From assembly GCF_003034965.1 (NCBI RefSeq), contig NZ_PZKE01000004.1, forward strand, positions 186,001 through 250,000: DNA of 64,000 bases. The letters run 5' to 3'. The notes under the pieces are model-generated. The model did not search any database and was not told where the DNA came from. It saw nothing but the letters and a program-made list of their open reading frames with translations. Source of the DNA: Fuscovulum blasticum DSM 2131. GTDB taxonomy: Bacteria > Pseudomonadota > Alphaproteobacteria > Rhodobacterales > Rhodobacteraceae. This document shows positions 33,005 through 37,625 of this stretch, piece by piece. Each line of letters starts with the position of its first letter. Position 1 is the first letter of the stretch. Position numbers and translations under genes: made by a program.

Positions 33005-34177
33005 TTATTGCAAGTCGGCGAACACCTTTTGCAGCCGGTCAACCGCCTCGGCCACCTGGGCGCGGGGGGCGGCAAGGTTCAGCCGCAGGAAGGTTTCGCC
33101 GCCGGGACCGAAGCTGTCGCCGTGGTTCGGGGCGATCTGTGCCTGTTTCTGCACCCGGTTCAGGATTTCCGCCTTGGTCATGCCGGTGCCGGCGAAATCG
33201 ACCCAGGCCAGATAGGTGGCCTCAAGCGGCATCGAGCGCAGGCCGGGAATGGCGTTCACGCCCGCGTCGAACAGGCGGCGGTTGCCGTCCAGATAGGCCA
33301 CCAGCGCATCGACCCATTCGGCCCCTTCGGGTGAATAGGCGGCGGTGACCATGTGCATCCCGAAACTGTTGGACGAGATGCCAAGCGCCATCATCCGGTC
33401 TGCGAATCTCTGGCGCAGGGCCGGATCCGCGATGATGACATTGCCGGTATGGGCGCCGGCGATGTTGAAGGTCTTGGTGGCGGCGGTCATCATCACCAGA
33501 CGGTCGGCAATTTCAGGCACGGCCTTGGCCATGACGTGATGTGTCTGGCCGGGGAACACCAGATCGTGGTGGATCTCGTCCGAGACCAGAATCAGGTTGT
33601 GACGGCGGCAGAAATCGGCGGTGGCCTGCAGTTCGGCCAGGGTCCAGACGCGGCCGCCGGGATTGTGCGGGGAACACAGGATCAGCATCTTCTCGGCGCC
33701 GGTCATCTGGGCATCCCAGGCGTCGAAGTCCATCTCGTAGCGGCCATTGACGGTTTTCAGATGGCAATCCACCACGCGGCGGCCGGCGGCCCGGATGGTG
33801 CGGGCGAAGGCGTGATAGACCGGCGTCATCAGCACCACCCCGTCACCGGGCTGGGTGAAGGCGTCGATGCACAGCCCGGTGCCGTTCACCAGCCCGTGTG
33901 TGGTGAAGATGTGCGAGGGATCGACCTGCCAGCCGTGGCGGCTGTCCATCCACCAGCGAATCGCCTCAAGATAGGGGCGGTCATCGCCGAAATAGCCGTA
34001 GACGCCGTGCGACAGCATCTTTTCCAGCGCCCGCTGCACCGATTGCGGGGGGCGGAACTCCATGTCCGCGACCCACATGGCGATGCCGGTGTCGGCCGAA
34101 ACGCCATAGAGGGATTCCATCATGTCCCACTTCACGCAGTGGGTGCCCTTGCGGTTGATCGGGGTGTCGAAGTTCAT
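33005..34177 (-). CDS. PatB/MalY-family PLP C-S lyase (cystathionine beta-lyase type)
   Basis: This 390-residue fold-type I PLP protein has the PatB/MalY start (FDTPINRKGTHCVKWD), the MWVADMEFRPP segment, CSPHNPGGRVWT, the PLP-contact Asp and Tyr context in LILVSDEIHHDL, and the Schiff-base Lys in TAATKTFNIAG. These enzymes cleave C-S bonds of cystathionine, cysteine conjugates or methionine derivatives. Physiological substrate is not clear from sequence. It is divergent from def across a 207-bp, AT-richer gap. Confidence 0.92.
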   Translation of the reverse strand: MNFDTPINRKGTHCVKWDMMESLYGVSADTGIAMWVADMEFRPPQSVQRALEKMLSHGVYGYFGDDRPYLEAIRWWMDSRHGWQVDPSHIFTTHGLVNGTGLCIDAFTQPGDGVVLMTPVYHAFARTIRAAGRRVVDCHLKTVNGRYEMDFDAWDAQMTGAEKMLILCSPHNPGGRVWTLAELQATADFCRRHNLILVSDEIHHDLVFPGQTHHVMAKAVPEIADRLVMMTAATKTFNIAGAHTGNVIIADPALRQRFADRMMALGISSNSFGMHMVTAAYSPEGAEWVDALVAYLDGNRRLFDAGVNAIPGLRSMPLEATYLAWVDFAGTGMTKAEILNRVQKQAQIAPNHGDSFGPGGETFLRLNLAAPRAQVAEAVDRLQKVFADLQ

Positions 34178-34384
34178 GCTGGCTTGCCGTGGTTGTGTCT
34201 GTTGTTCCTGATAATCCGGCCTTGGTGGGATGTCATTCTGATTTTACCGGAACATTTGGTAATTTGATCCAAAAGTGGCAAATAAACCGGGAAATCATAC
34301 CCGGTGCGACCGATGCGCGCCCCGGGCGCGGGGGTGATGCGGCCCTCTTGCAAGGGGGGGCTTGGTTCCCCTAGATCAGGGGCC
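34178..34384. promoter_or_regulatory. AT-richer divergent region with two inverted repeats
   Basis: This gap between the PatB-like lyase and def is less GC-rich than the coding DNA around it and should hold both promoters. It contains two inverted repeats: TTACC with GGTAA around TTTACC-N9-GGTAA near 34244-34263, and ACCGGG/CCCGGT with an eight-base spacer at 34286-34305. Either could be an operator. No -10/-35 pair with good spacing stood out. Confidence 0.4.
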
Positions 34385-34900
34385 ATGATCCGCAACATCC
34401 TCATCCATCCCGATCCCAGGCTCAAGAAGGTATGCGAGCCGGTCCGCGACATCACCCCCGAGGTGAAGGCGCTGGCCGCCGACATGCTGGAAACCATGTA
34501 TGTCGCGCCCGGCATCGGGCTGGCCGCGCCGCAGGTGGGCGCGATGATCCGGCTTCTGGTGATGGATTGCATCAAGGACGGCCCGGCCGAGCCGATGGTG
34601 CTGATCAACCCGGAACTGGTCTGGGCGTCGGAAGATGTGTCGATCTTCGAGGAAGGCTGCCTGTCGCTGCCGGAACAATATGCCGAGGTGAAGCGCCCCT
34701 CGATCGTGACGGTGCGCTGGATGGATCTGGACGGCGCCCCGCAGGAGCGCACCTTTGACGGGCTGTGGGCGACCTGCGTGCAGCACGAGATGGACCATCT
34801 GGATGGCAAGCTGTTCATTGACTATCTGGGGCCGATGAAGCGGCAGATGGTGCTGCGCAAGCTGGAAAAGGTGAAGCGCGAGCGCGCCCGCATGGGGTGA
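34385..34900 (+). CDS. def: Peptide deformylase
   Basis: This 171-residue enzyme carries all three deformylase motifs: GIGLAAPQVG (43-52), EGCLSLP (Cys92 as metal ligand) and QHEMDHLDG (His134, Glu135, His138). It removes the formyl group from N-terminal Met of nascent proteins, normally with Fe2+. The long C-terminal helix ends with KLEKVKRERARMG. It is the first of three consecutive deformylase-type genes and the one most likely to be the housekeeping enzyme, followed by fmt in the same direction. ATG 34385 gives the usual N-terminus MIRNILIHPDPRL. Confidence 0.96.
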   Translation: MIRNILIHPDPRLKKVCEPVRDITPEVKALAADMLETMYVAPGIGLAAPQVGAMIRLLVMDCIKDGPAEPMVLINPELVWASEDVSIFEEGCLSLPEQYAEVKRPSIVTVRWMDLDGAPQERTFDGLWATCVQHEMDHLDGKLFIDYLGPMKRQMVLRKLEKVKRERARMG

Positions 34901-34950
34901 CCTTGCGGCGCTGATCGGTTATGGCGCGGGCAGACAAGGAAGGTGATCCG

Positions 34951-35439
34951 ATGATCCTGCCCATTCTGCGCTGGCCCGACCCGGTTCTGACAACGCCCTG
35001 CGCCCCCGCCGTGCTGTCTGATGACCTGCGGGCGCTGGCGGACGACATGCTGGACACGATGTATGCCGCGCCGGGGCGCGGGCTGGCGGCGCCGCAGGTG
35101 GGGCGGCTGCTGCGGCTGTTCGTGATGGATGCGGGCTGGAAGGACGGCCCGCGCACGCCGCGCGTGCTGGTGAACCCCGAGGTGGTGGAACTGATGGGCG
35201 CGCGGGTGGTGGGGCCGGAGGGCTGTTTGTCGATTCCGGGGCCGGTGACGCAGGTCGAACGGGCCGAGGCGGTGCGGATGCGCTGGACCGATCTGGACGG
35301 CGGGCCGCAGGAGGCGGTGCTGACCGGGTTCGAGGCGATCTGTGCCCAGCATGAGTATGACCATCTGGACGGCATCCTGACGCTGGACCGGCTGTCGCCG
35401 CAGGCGCGGGCCGAGGCGGAAGCGGCGGTGCTGGCATGA
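34951..35439 (+). CDS. Second peptide deformylase
   Basis: This 162-residue paralogue keeps every catalytic element: GRGLAAPQVG (42-51), EGCLSIPG with Cys92, and QHEYDHLDG with His134, Glu135 and His138. It is therefore probably an active deformylase. The first gene's GIG becomes GRG and the C-terminal helix is shorter. ATG 34951 is preferred because AAGGAAGGTG lies at good spacing; an in-frame ATG at 34921 is less likely. It overlaps the third deformylase-like gene as ATGA, suggesting coupled synthesis. Confidence 0.93.
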   Translation: MILPILRWPDPVLTTPCAPAVLSDDLRALADDMLDTMYAAPGRGLAAPQVGRLLRLFVMDAGWKDGPRTPRVLVNPEVVELMGARVVGPEGCLSIPGPVTQVERAEAVRMRWTDLDGGPQEAVLTGFEAICAQHEYDHLDGILTLDRLSPQARAEAEAAVLA

Positions 35440-35936
35440 GCGTGCGCCCCTGCCTGCCCTGGCCGCATCCGGCGCTGAAGACCCCGGCGCGGGATGTGGA
35501 GGCGATCACCGACGAGATCCGCGCGATCTGGGAGGACATGATCGAGACCATGGACGCGATGCCCGGCGTGGGGCTGGCGGCGGTGCAGATCGGTGTGCCG
35601 CTGCGGCTGGCCGTGGTGGACTGTTCCGACAGGCGCGGGCAGGCGATCCGTATGGCCAACCCCGAGGTGCTTCATGCCAGCGTGCAGTTGCGCGAGCATG
35701 AGGAAGCCTCGCCCAACCTGCCGGGGGTTTCGGCGGTGATCGCGCGGCCGCGCGCGGTGACGGTGCGGTTCCTGAACGACCGGGGCGAGACCGAGGAGCG
35801 GGATTTCGTCGATCTCTGGGCGACCAGCGTGCAGCACCAGATCGACCATCTGGCGGGCCGGATGTATTTTGACCGGCTGTCGGCGCTGAAGCGGAAGATG
35901 CTGATTGCCAAGGCCGACAAGCTGCGGAGGCGGTAA
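35436..35936 (+). CDS. Deformylase-like protein with changed active site
   Basis: This 166-residue paralogue aligns end to end with the first Def, with the same residue numbers, but it lacks the key groups. The EGCLSLP motif is EASPNLP, so metal ligand Cys92 is Ser. The HExxH motif is HQIDH, so catalytic Glu135 is Gln; only His134 and His138 remain. GVGLAAVQIG keeps the overall fold. Deformylase activity is not expected. The reading frame is intact, so it is probably maintained for another role, such as binding formyl-peptide ends or ribosomes, or partnering another Def. It directly abuts fmt. Confidence 0.88.
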   Translation: MSVRPCLPWPHPALKTPARDVEAITDEIRAIWEDMIETMDAMPGVGLAAVQIGVPLRLAVVDCSDRRGQAIRMANPEVLHASVQLREHEEASPNLPGVSAVIARPRAVTVRFLNDRGETEERDFVDLWATSVQHQIDHLAGRMYFDRLSALKRKMLIAKADKLRRR

Positions 35937-36833
35937 GTGAAAATCATTTTCATGGGAACGCCCGAGTTCAGCGTGCCGGTGCTGGAGGCGCTGGCGCAAC
36001 AGCATGAAATCCTGTGCGTTTACAGCCAGCCGCCCCGCCCTGCCGGGCGCGGGAAAGAGCTGCGGAAAACTCCGGTTCATGCCCGGGCCGAGGCGCTGGG
36101 CCTGAGCGTGCGCACGCCGGTTTCGCTGCGCAGCGAAGAGGCGGCGAAAGCGGTGGCCGATCTGGGGGCGGATGTGGCGGTGGTGGTGGCCTATGGGCTG
36201 ATCCTGCCGCAAGCGGTGCTGGATGCGCCGCGCCTTGGCTGCCTGAACATCCACGCCTCGCTGTTGCCGCGCTGGCGCGGGGCGGCGCCGATCCACCGCG
36301 CGATTCTGGCGGGCGATGTGGAAACCGGCATCTGCATCATGCAGATGGAGGCAGGCCTGGACACCGGGCCGGTGCTGCTGCGCGAGGCGACCGCGATCGG
36401 GGCGGGCGAAACCACCGCCGAGCTGCACGACCGGCTGAGCGGGATGGGCGCGCGGCTGATCGGGGTGGCGCTGGACCGGCTGGGCGAACTGACGCCCGTG
36501 CCGCAGCCCGAGGACGGCGTGACCTATGCCGCCAAGATCGACAAGGCCGAGGCGCGGGTGGACTGGACGCGCCCGGCGGTGCAGGTGGACCGGCAGATCC
36601 GGGGGCTGTCGCCGTTCCCCGGCGCCTGGGTGCCGGTGGGCGGGGAACGGGTGAAACTGCTGCGGTCGCGGCTGGCGGCGGGGACGGGCACGCCGGGACA
36701 GGTGCTGGGCGGGTTCACCATTGCCTGCGGCGAGGGCGCGGTCGAGGTGCTGGAGGCGCAGCGCGAGGGCAAGCGGCCGATGCCGGCGGCCGAGGTTCTG
36801 AAAGGGCTGGTGCTGCCGCCGCATCTGGGCTGA
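35937..36833 (+). CDS. fmt: Methionyl-tRNA formyltransferase
   Basis: This 298-residue enzyme formylates Met-tRNAfMet with 10-formyl-tetrahydrofolate to start translation. The N-terminal formyltransferase domain has [15 protein letters not shown], the catalytic [21 protein letters not shown] (Asn and His) and GLDTGPVLL. The C-terminal OB-like tRNA-binding domain follows (about 205-298). It begins with GTG at 35937, immediately after the previous stop, so translation likely depends on coupling. It matches the deformylases upstream as the opposite step of the same N-terminal formyl cycle. Confidence 0.96.
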
Positions 36834-36860
36834 CGCGGCGTCTGGTGCCGGGGCGGTGCA

Positions 36861-36877
36861 GCCCCCATATTGGGGGC
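36861..36877 (+). other. Short hairpin between fmt and the small membrane gene
   Basis: GCCCCCA (36861-36867) and TGGGGGC (36871-36877) form a 7-bp stem with a three-base loop between fmt and the next gene. It has no following T run. It could end or trim the fmt message. Confidence 0.4.
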
Positions 36878-36898
36878 ACGGAACGCGCGGAGGCTGCG

Positions 36899-37132
36899 AT
36901 GCCCTTTTTCATGCTGATGATCATCGGTGCGGCGGCCGGGTTTCTGGCCACCCGGCTGATGAGGCTGGAGACCGATGTGCCGACCACGGTGGCCATCGGC
37001 GTGTTCGGCGCGCTGATCGGCGGCTTCATCCTGCGGGCGCTGGTGGCGATGCTGGGGGCGGTGGCCGGCTTTGTGGGCGCCTTTCTGGGCGCGCTGGCGC
37101 TGATCTGGCTGTGGAAGACTTATATCAGGTAA
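36899..37132 (+). CDS. GlsB/YeaQ/YmgE-family small membrane protein
   Basis: This 77-residue protein is nearly all membrane-embedded: MPFFMLMIIGAAAGFLATRLMRLETDV is followed by two more hydrophobic stretches (VAIGVFGALIGGFILRALVAML and VAGFVGAFLGALALIWLW), with Gly-rich packing as in transglycosylase-associated / YeaQ proteins. They are often linked to stress or stationary phase, but the activity is not known. A GCGGAGG ribosome-binding site precedes ATG 36899. It is convergent with the TetR gene, and the two ends overlap by 8 bp. Confidence 0.8.
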   Translation: MPFFMLMIIGAAAGFLATRLMRLETDVPTTVAIGVFGALIGGFILRALVAMLGAVAGFVGAFLGALALIWLWKTYIR

Positions 37133-37625
37133 GCCGGCGCGCCAGATCCTTGATGCGGATTTCGGGATCTTCCCACAGGATCTGGCCCTGCCAGACCGCA
37201 AACAGCACCTGCGCGGCGCTGCGGGCCTTTTCGCCGCTGCCGATGCGGCGGGCCAGCGCGGCCTCGATCTGGGCACGCCAGACGGCGCCGGCTTCGCGGG
37301 CGACCGGATCGCGGGTGCCCAGCGACAAGAGCAGCGGCGCCTTGCGGGCGGTGGGGTCCAGCGCCTTGAGAAACCCTTGCGGACCCTTGCCGGTGGTGGC
37401 GGCATCGGCGGCGGTGGCGGCTTCGGTCAGCACGGCCCAGCCATCGCGGGCGGCGGCGGAGAGCATCCCTTCGACGCTGCCATAGCGTTGCGCAAGGGTT
37501 GATCCGGCCAGTCCGGTGGCACGGGCCACGCTGCCGAAGGAAACCGATTTTTCGCCCCCTTGCGCGTAAAGACGGCGCGCGGCGGCAAGAACCTGACTGT
37601 CGGGAAGGGTTTTCTGGCGTGGCAT
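37125..37625 (-). CDS. TetR-family transcriptional regulator
   Basis: This 166-residue protein has an N-terminal TetR-type helix-turn-helix (LAAARRLYAQGGEKSVSFGSVARATGLAGSTLAQRYGSVEGML, about 12-55) and an all-helical C-terminal ligand domain. It is slightly short for TetR (usually about 190). Its target is unclear, as it is neither divergent from nor next to an obvious efflux gene; a TRIC-type channel gene lies upstream in the same direction (48 bp). Confidence 0.8.
   Translation of the reverse strand: MPRQKTLPDSQVLAAARRLYAQGGEKSVSFGSVARATGLAGSTLAQRYGSVEGMLSAAARDGWAVLTEAATAADAATTGKGPQGFLKALDPTARKAPLLLSLGTRDPVAREAGAVWRAQIEAALARRIGSGEKARSAAQVLFAVWQGQILWEDPEIRIKDLARRLT

Follow-up and report, generated by a model that had tools for sequence, protein, structure and literature searches.

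The window, by which we mean the whole 64,000-nucleotide stretch of Fuscovulum blasticum DSM 2131 DNA that was analysed, carries three deformylase-type genes in front of fmt (Table 1), as the initial annotation had claimed, and these three (Def1, Def2 and Def3) are exactly the PF01327 genes of the 3.59 Mb genome. Translations confirm that the first two peptide deformylases (PDFs) have the EGCLS and QHExDH motifs intact: Def1 combines EGCLS and QHEMDH with a basic C-terminal helix, Def2 combines EGCLS and QHEYDH with a short, non-basic tail. In the translation of Def3, motif II reads EEASPNLP and motif III reads QHQIDH, and the replacements of Cys92 by Ser and of Glu135 by Gln that had been noticed there are borne out by the codons (TCG at 35709-35711, as read in the DNA, and CAG). 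The tight packing described for the gene is also present, with an ATGA overlap between Def2 and Def3 at 35436-35439 and fmt directly behind. The alignment of Def3, said to be gapless, is not exactly so: motifs II and III do stand at 92 and 135 in both Def1 and Def3, motif I stands at 43 versus 44, and the two proteins show a compensated one-residue offset in a loop near residue 65. The closest named loci are from Tabrizicola, Rhodobacter and other Rhodobacteraceae. A promoter scan from 34100 to 37200 gave no sigma-70-type site, and PADLOC gave no match to Def2 or Def3 as anti-phage defence. Downstream of fmt, a small ORF (36899-37132, + strand) encodes a hydrophobic protein of 77 aa without a Pfam match.

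The cluster itself is published: clustered PDF genes occur in 98.1% of Rhodobacterales reference species, three of them in 62.5%, and their rationale has been called elusive (PMC12690207). The locus described here is a cluster of this same kind. As far as the account in PMC12690207 was covered, it makes no mention of one copy with fixed inactivating changes, and no report of those of Def3 was found in the literature searched.

Table 1. Genes and features of the three-deformylase locus (positions in the window)
Feature	Position	Strand	Description
Def1	34385..34900	+	Housekeeping peptide deformylase, 171 aa from ATG 34385; start chosen by homology
Def2	34921..35439	+	PDF paralogue; relatives suggest ATG 34951 as start, not 34921
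Def3	35436..35936	+	Conserved pseudo-deformylase, 166 aa (by translation, PF01327 match, family alignment and model)
Ser92 and Pro93 codons of Def3	35709..35714	+	Equivalent to E. coli Cys90 (metal ligand) and Leu91
Ser131 codon of Def3	35826..35828	+	Equivalent to E. coli Cys129
Gln135 codon of Def3 (CAG)	35838..35840	+	Equivalent to E. coli Glu133 (general base)
Basic C-terminal helix of Def3	35883..35933	+	Helix 150-165 of the model; Lys152, Lys159 and Lys162 equivalent to E. coli Lys150, Lys157 and Lys160
fmt	35937..36833	+	Methionyl-tRNA formyltransferase; GTG start adjoining the Def3 stop codon

Active-site substitutions in the predicted Def3 fold

The PDF fold is predicted to be kept in Def3. 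The protein scores 133.7 bits against PF01327 (cut-off 22.8) and 125.6 against TIGR00079 (cut-off 103.95); lying above this equivalog cut-off, it would be given the name peptide deformylase in annotation. Its AlphaFold2 model (pLDDT 96.1, pTM 0.91) matches the E. coli PDF structures 1xen and 1bsj with a Z of 27 and superposes on E. coli PDF with an rmsd of 1.2-1.4 Å over 161-164 residues.

In E. coli PDF, Cys90 is a metal ligand, Glu133 is the general base, and the NH of Leu91 forms the oxyanion hole together with Gln50. Docking to the E. coli enzyme likewise places the backbone of Leu91, the side chain of Gln50 and Glu133 in the active site (PMC4964514, in the part of that source covered). 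In a joint alignment, Def3 has Ser for Cys90, Pro for Leu91, Asn for Ser92 (nearly fixed), Ser for Cys129 and Gln for Glu133. These invariant or nearly invariant changes set it apart from the type 1 PDF of E. coli (PF01327/TIGR00079), which it otherwise resembles in predicted fold, motif I, metal-binding His, C-terminal helix and adjacency to fmt.

How widely these changes are shared was read from 198 family genomes, each of another genus by code (query P0001): 192 have some PDF match, which is of Def3 grade (E <= 1e-46) in 162 and weaker only in 30, and six have none. In the 160 of the 162 Def3-grade matches that were read, all from Rhodobacteraceae, Ser92, Pro93, Ser131 and Gln135 are invariant (160/160); the two substitutions are thus identical throughout, and no copy keeps the Cys and Glu that purely local decay would have left in the orthologues. 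Going through the motifs, (i) motif I (G-phi-G-phi-A-A-x-Q) is intact, with Gly44, Gly46 and Gln51 in 160/160; (ii) motif II, EGCLS with its metal-ligand Cys, is lost to Ser92 and Pro93; and (iii) motif III reads HQxDH instead of HExxH in 160/160, both metal-binding His being kept. Glu90, His134, Asp137, His138 and Gly141 are invariant in the same 160 copies. Residue 91 is Ala in 138, Gly in 21 and Val in 1; residue 94 is Asn in 145, Cys in 14 and His in 1. Of the other positions specific to Def3, Trp32, Met42, Ala59 and Ala74 are nearly fixed, Arg86 and His88 somewhat less so. The same substitutions, along with Gly44, Gly46, Gln51, Glu90, His134, Asp137 and His138, recur in 12/12 same-genus copies and in 59/59 named copies long enough to include motif III (one more named copy ends before it at a contig end), the named loci including Paracoccus, Roseovarius, Leisingera, Sulfitobacter, Loktanella, Jannaschia and Yoonia.

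Accessory PDFs with altered motifs have been described before: the type 3 PDFs, with changes in motifs I and II, comprise inactive accessory copies in S. aureus and S. pneumoniae as well as the T. brucei PDF (PMC12690207). Def3 is like them in being a motif-substituted accessory paralogue beside an active PDF and unlike them, going by their description in the covered part of that study, in that motif I is intact while motifs II and III are changed.

The conserved residues indicate that Def3 retains the floor of the fMet pocket and both metal-binding His. That it is inactive as a hydrolase is well supported by its sequence and, in our judgement, very probable. The initial annotation had expected both catalysis and metal binding to be lost; the fixed substitutions argue for the first, and the second goes too far. 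Because His134 and His138 are kept in every copy, metal binding may instead be weakened or altered, and Def3 could possibly hold some metal and have weak activity.

C-terminal tails of Def3 and Def2

In E. coli PDF, Lys150 and Lys157 contact uL22 and Lys160 contacts 23S rRNA (PMC12690207, as far as covered). Lys or Arg occupies all three places in 102/102 Def3 copies; in Def2 the equivalent positions are mostly absent or filled by Ala, Glu or Asp. The median net charge of the tail after motif III is +7 in Def3, +8 in Def1 and -1 in Def2, and it is at least +4 in 102/102 Def3 copies and 1/54 Def2 copies. One E. coli contact, that of Arg153 with uL22 Glu52, is not preserved, the place being taken by Met in 95/102 Def3 copies; this difference is not specific to Def3, because Def1 too has Met there (88/100).

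Def3 thus keeps the basic helix by which E. coli PDF docks to ribosomes, and Def2 has lost it. With the tail residues kept in Def3 and mostly replaced or missing in Def2, the two paralogues have undergone complementary losses, Def2 having catalysis without the docking residues and Def3 the docking residues without catalysis. Vibrio cholerae provides a parallel to the Def2 of Rhodobacteraceae: its own Def2 is an accessory PDF whose ribosome helix is altered and, in contrast to Def3, an active enzyme with all three motifs intact (PMC12690207, in the part covered). Taken with the fixed substitutions, the tail marks Def3, on sequence grounds, as a lineage-wide fixed pseudo-deformylase with its docking helix kept.

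Selection, distribution and loss

Cys92 and Glu135 are kept in 100/100 Def1 copies, and the corresponding Cys and Glu in 53/54 Def2 copies, the one exception (L019) having lost both, as has the named L158. The three genes were compared pairwise in 48 of the 53 family genomes that carry all of them, five from the same genus being set aside; identity averages 0.715 for Def1, 0.668 for Def3 and 0.495 for Def2, Def3 being more conserved than Def2 in 1116 of 1128 genome pairs. Purifying selection, suggested as a test for Def3, is found as well: median dN/dS (NG86, pairs with dS < 1.5) is 0.190, close to the 0.179 of Def1, and 0.352 for Def2, values that are rough given constrained synonymous sites at the gene overlaps, high GC and several pairs near saturation. 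Because both its identity and its dN/dS are close to those of Def1, Def3 is nearly as constrained as this housekeeping enzyme while lacking the catalytic residues.

Def2 is fast-evolving and otherwise mostly intact, with a non-basic tail of very variable length. In 54/54 copies the residue corresponding to E. coli Ile44 is Arg (GRGLAAPQ), a fixed change in the pocket. Catalytic residues were lost independently from Def2 at loci L019 and L158 (Pelagimonas) and at L178 (Paracoccus zeaxanthinifaciens), each beside an intact Def3 pattern; the motifs of the residue-losing copies are ENALS with QQVMDH, and QHLADH.

A PDF tree with 110 rows groups the Def3 copies into a single clade (SH-aLRT 100), whose stem measures 1.12 changes per column; the Def2 copies also make up a single clade (95), with long end branches. 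The pattern for Def3 looks like a single burst of change followed by constraint. Because the changes are fixed, the pocket and helix are kept, selection is purifying and the copies form one clade, we read Def3 as a maintained pseudo-deformylase and not as a gene in decay, in line with the argument against simple decay made in the initial annotation.

Nor is the gene frequently broken. Among the 30 family genomes with weaker matches only, two have a Def3 cut by contig ends (G147, G098) and a single one has broken frames (G157); the others simply lack the gene, two carrying Def1 and Def2 without Def3 (G118, G136) and 25 carrying Def1 only. At the locus of G157 (L256) the frames of both Def2 and Def3 are broken and Def1 is intact, which may be real decay or assembly errors in a genome that is 80% complete. 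An order-wide profile search found Def3-grade matches in 100 of 101 genomes, the remaining one (G636) having Def1 only.

In a tree of Fmt and Def1, genomes without Def3 lie partly near the base and are otherwise scattered among Def3 bearers, with at least 15 changes, a rough count because many forks are weak and some long branches meet. This tree used 84 of 90 Def3 bearers (Def1 and a well-scoring fmt frame being needed), with L233, L239 and L252 dropped; L191 was left out of A2, and Def3 starts are misassigned in some genes (L117, L135). Because the Def3-less genomes sit both near the base and scattered, Def3 appears to be an old trait of the family that can be lost. It has been lost several times and is therefore not universally essential; its role is dispensable in some lineages, since the gene is missing from about 25 of the family genomes sampled, and several of these are scattered across the tree.

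Beyond the family, PDFs with QHQ-x-DH, the one substitution pattern covered by this search, were found in 0/380 class genomes and 0/371 phylum genomes. In the class set of 385 genomes, a QHQ-x-DH-L DNA pattern matched 21 genomes, and its four family matches are Def3; a fifth family genome (G219) was missed since the pattern required Leu after DH, and was matched by a looser one. Of the 18 non-family matches, in 17 genomes, 15 fall in ORFs judged by eye not to encode PDFs and three in no ORF of 60 aa. In the phylum set of 398, the looser pattern matched 27/27 family genomes and 5/371 others, none of these five being a PDF by HMM scan and reading. A class- or phylum-wide Def3 family is rejected, the pattern matches beyond Rhodobacteraceae being no PDFs. 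One of the five phylum matches outside the family (L292) has a marginal Def3-profile score (12.7 bits), and its frame looks by eye like a peptidylprolyl isomerase.

Light-harvesting alpha chains can keep their formyl-Met. Phototrophy shows no association with Def3: PF00556 occurs in 84/198 family genomes, and 14 of the 30 that lack a full Def3 match have it.

Possible roles of Def3

Deformylation is essential, co-translational and a target of antibacterials, and is usually treated as one enzyme acting uncontrolled. Our best guess is that Def3 acts at the exit, as a brake on deformylation or a shield against it. Def3 would arise from the operon def1-(def2)-def3-fmt, where co-translation with an active PDF would fix the Def3:PDF ratio, and would dock by the tunnel exit (uL22 groove), as Def1 would. 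Its retained pocket would take the formyl-Met end and hold or shield it, leaving the formyl group unhydrolysed, and by competing with Def1 and methionine aminopeptidase Def3 would set the timing of formyl removal or the choice of chains for it. E. coli PDF binds the ribosome with an affinity of ~2 µM, has a cellular concentration of ~2 µM and faces competition from methionine aminopeptidase for its binding site (PMC8712518); on these values, taken from the covered part of that source, a non-cutting, co-produced paralogue could plausibly tune access.

Docking at the ribosome is likely in view of the helix, and from the retained pocket we infer that formyl-Met could be bound without being cut; the earlier suggestion that Def3 binds formylated N-termini or the ribosome fits both features. 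A regulatory partnership with the other two PDFs, raised at the same time, is conceivable too. Def3 probably works as a binding protein and not as a cutting enzyme. With middling confidence, we propose that it is a maintained pseudo-deformylase of the Rhodobacteraceae that is docked on the ribosome and holds or shields formyl-Met ends without hydrolysis. More tentatively, it might be a ribosome-docked 'anti-deformylase' pseudoenzyme, fixed in most of the family beside a Def2 with the complementary loss. If true, a paralogue that has a docking helix and does not cut, present in at least 160 genera, would regulate formyl removal at the ribosome, and the purpose of the clustered PDF genes that the covered part of PMC12690207 leaves elusive would be explained.

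A rather unlikely alternative is that Def3 is a subunit or stabiliser of active PDFs, forming a heteromer with Def1 or Def2 and, for example, lending its ribosome helix to Def2. The complementary losses are what such a partnership could produce, and gene order and co-occurrence speak for it too: in a sample of 102 Def3 genomes (54 with Def2, 47 without, and one locus showing neither gene), the ATGA overlap of Def2 and Def3 recurs in 48 of the 54, and Def2 is found in 54/102 genomes with Def3 versus 2/27 without (Fisher p 1.6e-5). Strong without phylogeny, this association is weak with it, only five independent pairs being left (median p 0.25), and since 48 of the 102 Def3 genomes lack Def2, carrying Def2 cannot be the sole role of Def3. 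Where Def2 is missing, Def3 overlaps or abuts Def1 at -4 or -1 in 32/47 genomes. The Def1-Def2-fmt clusters without Def3 in G118 (L246) and G136 (L235), the only two seen, would serve well as natural controls for a dependence of Def2 on Def3.

It is likewise improbable that Def3 is still a deformylase or related hydrolase that works with an altered metal or under special conditions, through a Ser/His/His site of low activity that is perhaps oxidation-tolerant. The invariance of His134, His138, Asp137, Gln51 and Glu90 would suit such an enzyme, as would the change of both active-site Cys to Ser in all copies, but Gln cannot serve as a general base, the changes are in every copy, and Pro93 lacks a backbone NH where E. 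coli Leu91 offers one to the oxyanion hole. In favour of residual activity, motif-altered PDFs may use other metals under oxidative stress, and T. brucei offers an example of active type 3 PDFs whose motifs are altered (PMC12690207 and work cited there, as far as covered).

We consider it quite unlikely that Def3 was recruited off the ribosome, either to recognise formyl-Met proteins that are to be degraded or to serve as a decoy for naturally occurring inhibitors of PDF. The fMet pocket is retained, and the covered part of PMC12690207 mentions such natural inhibitors as well as degradation signalled by the formyl group. The kept docking helix and the operon with fmt, whose frame opens within 100 nt of the Def3 stop in 91/102 genomes, nevertheless point to the ribosome, and hydroxamates such as actinonin would be expected to bind poorly to a pocket that lacks Cys and Glu. 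That Def3 is a redundant copy undergoing local decay, for which the broken frames of G157 and the lineages that lost Def3 might be cited, is rejected as highly improbable, given invariant substitutions in intact copies (160/160) and a Def1-like dN/dS.

A separate observation concerns Def1: across 100 Rhodobacteraceae copies, the residue aligned with E. coli Arg97 is Tyr in 83% and Phe in 17%. Exchange of Arg97 for Tyr has been linked to weaker actinonin binding (PMC12690207, in the part covered). Because of this Tyr or Phe, the housekeeping PDF of Rhodobacteraceae may be naturally less sensitive to actinonin.
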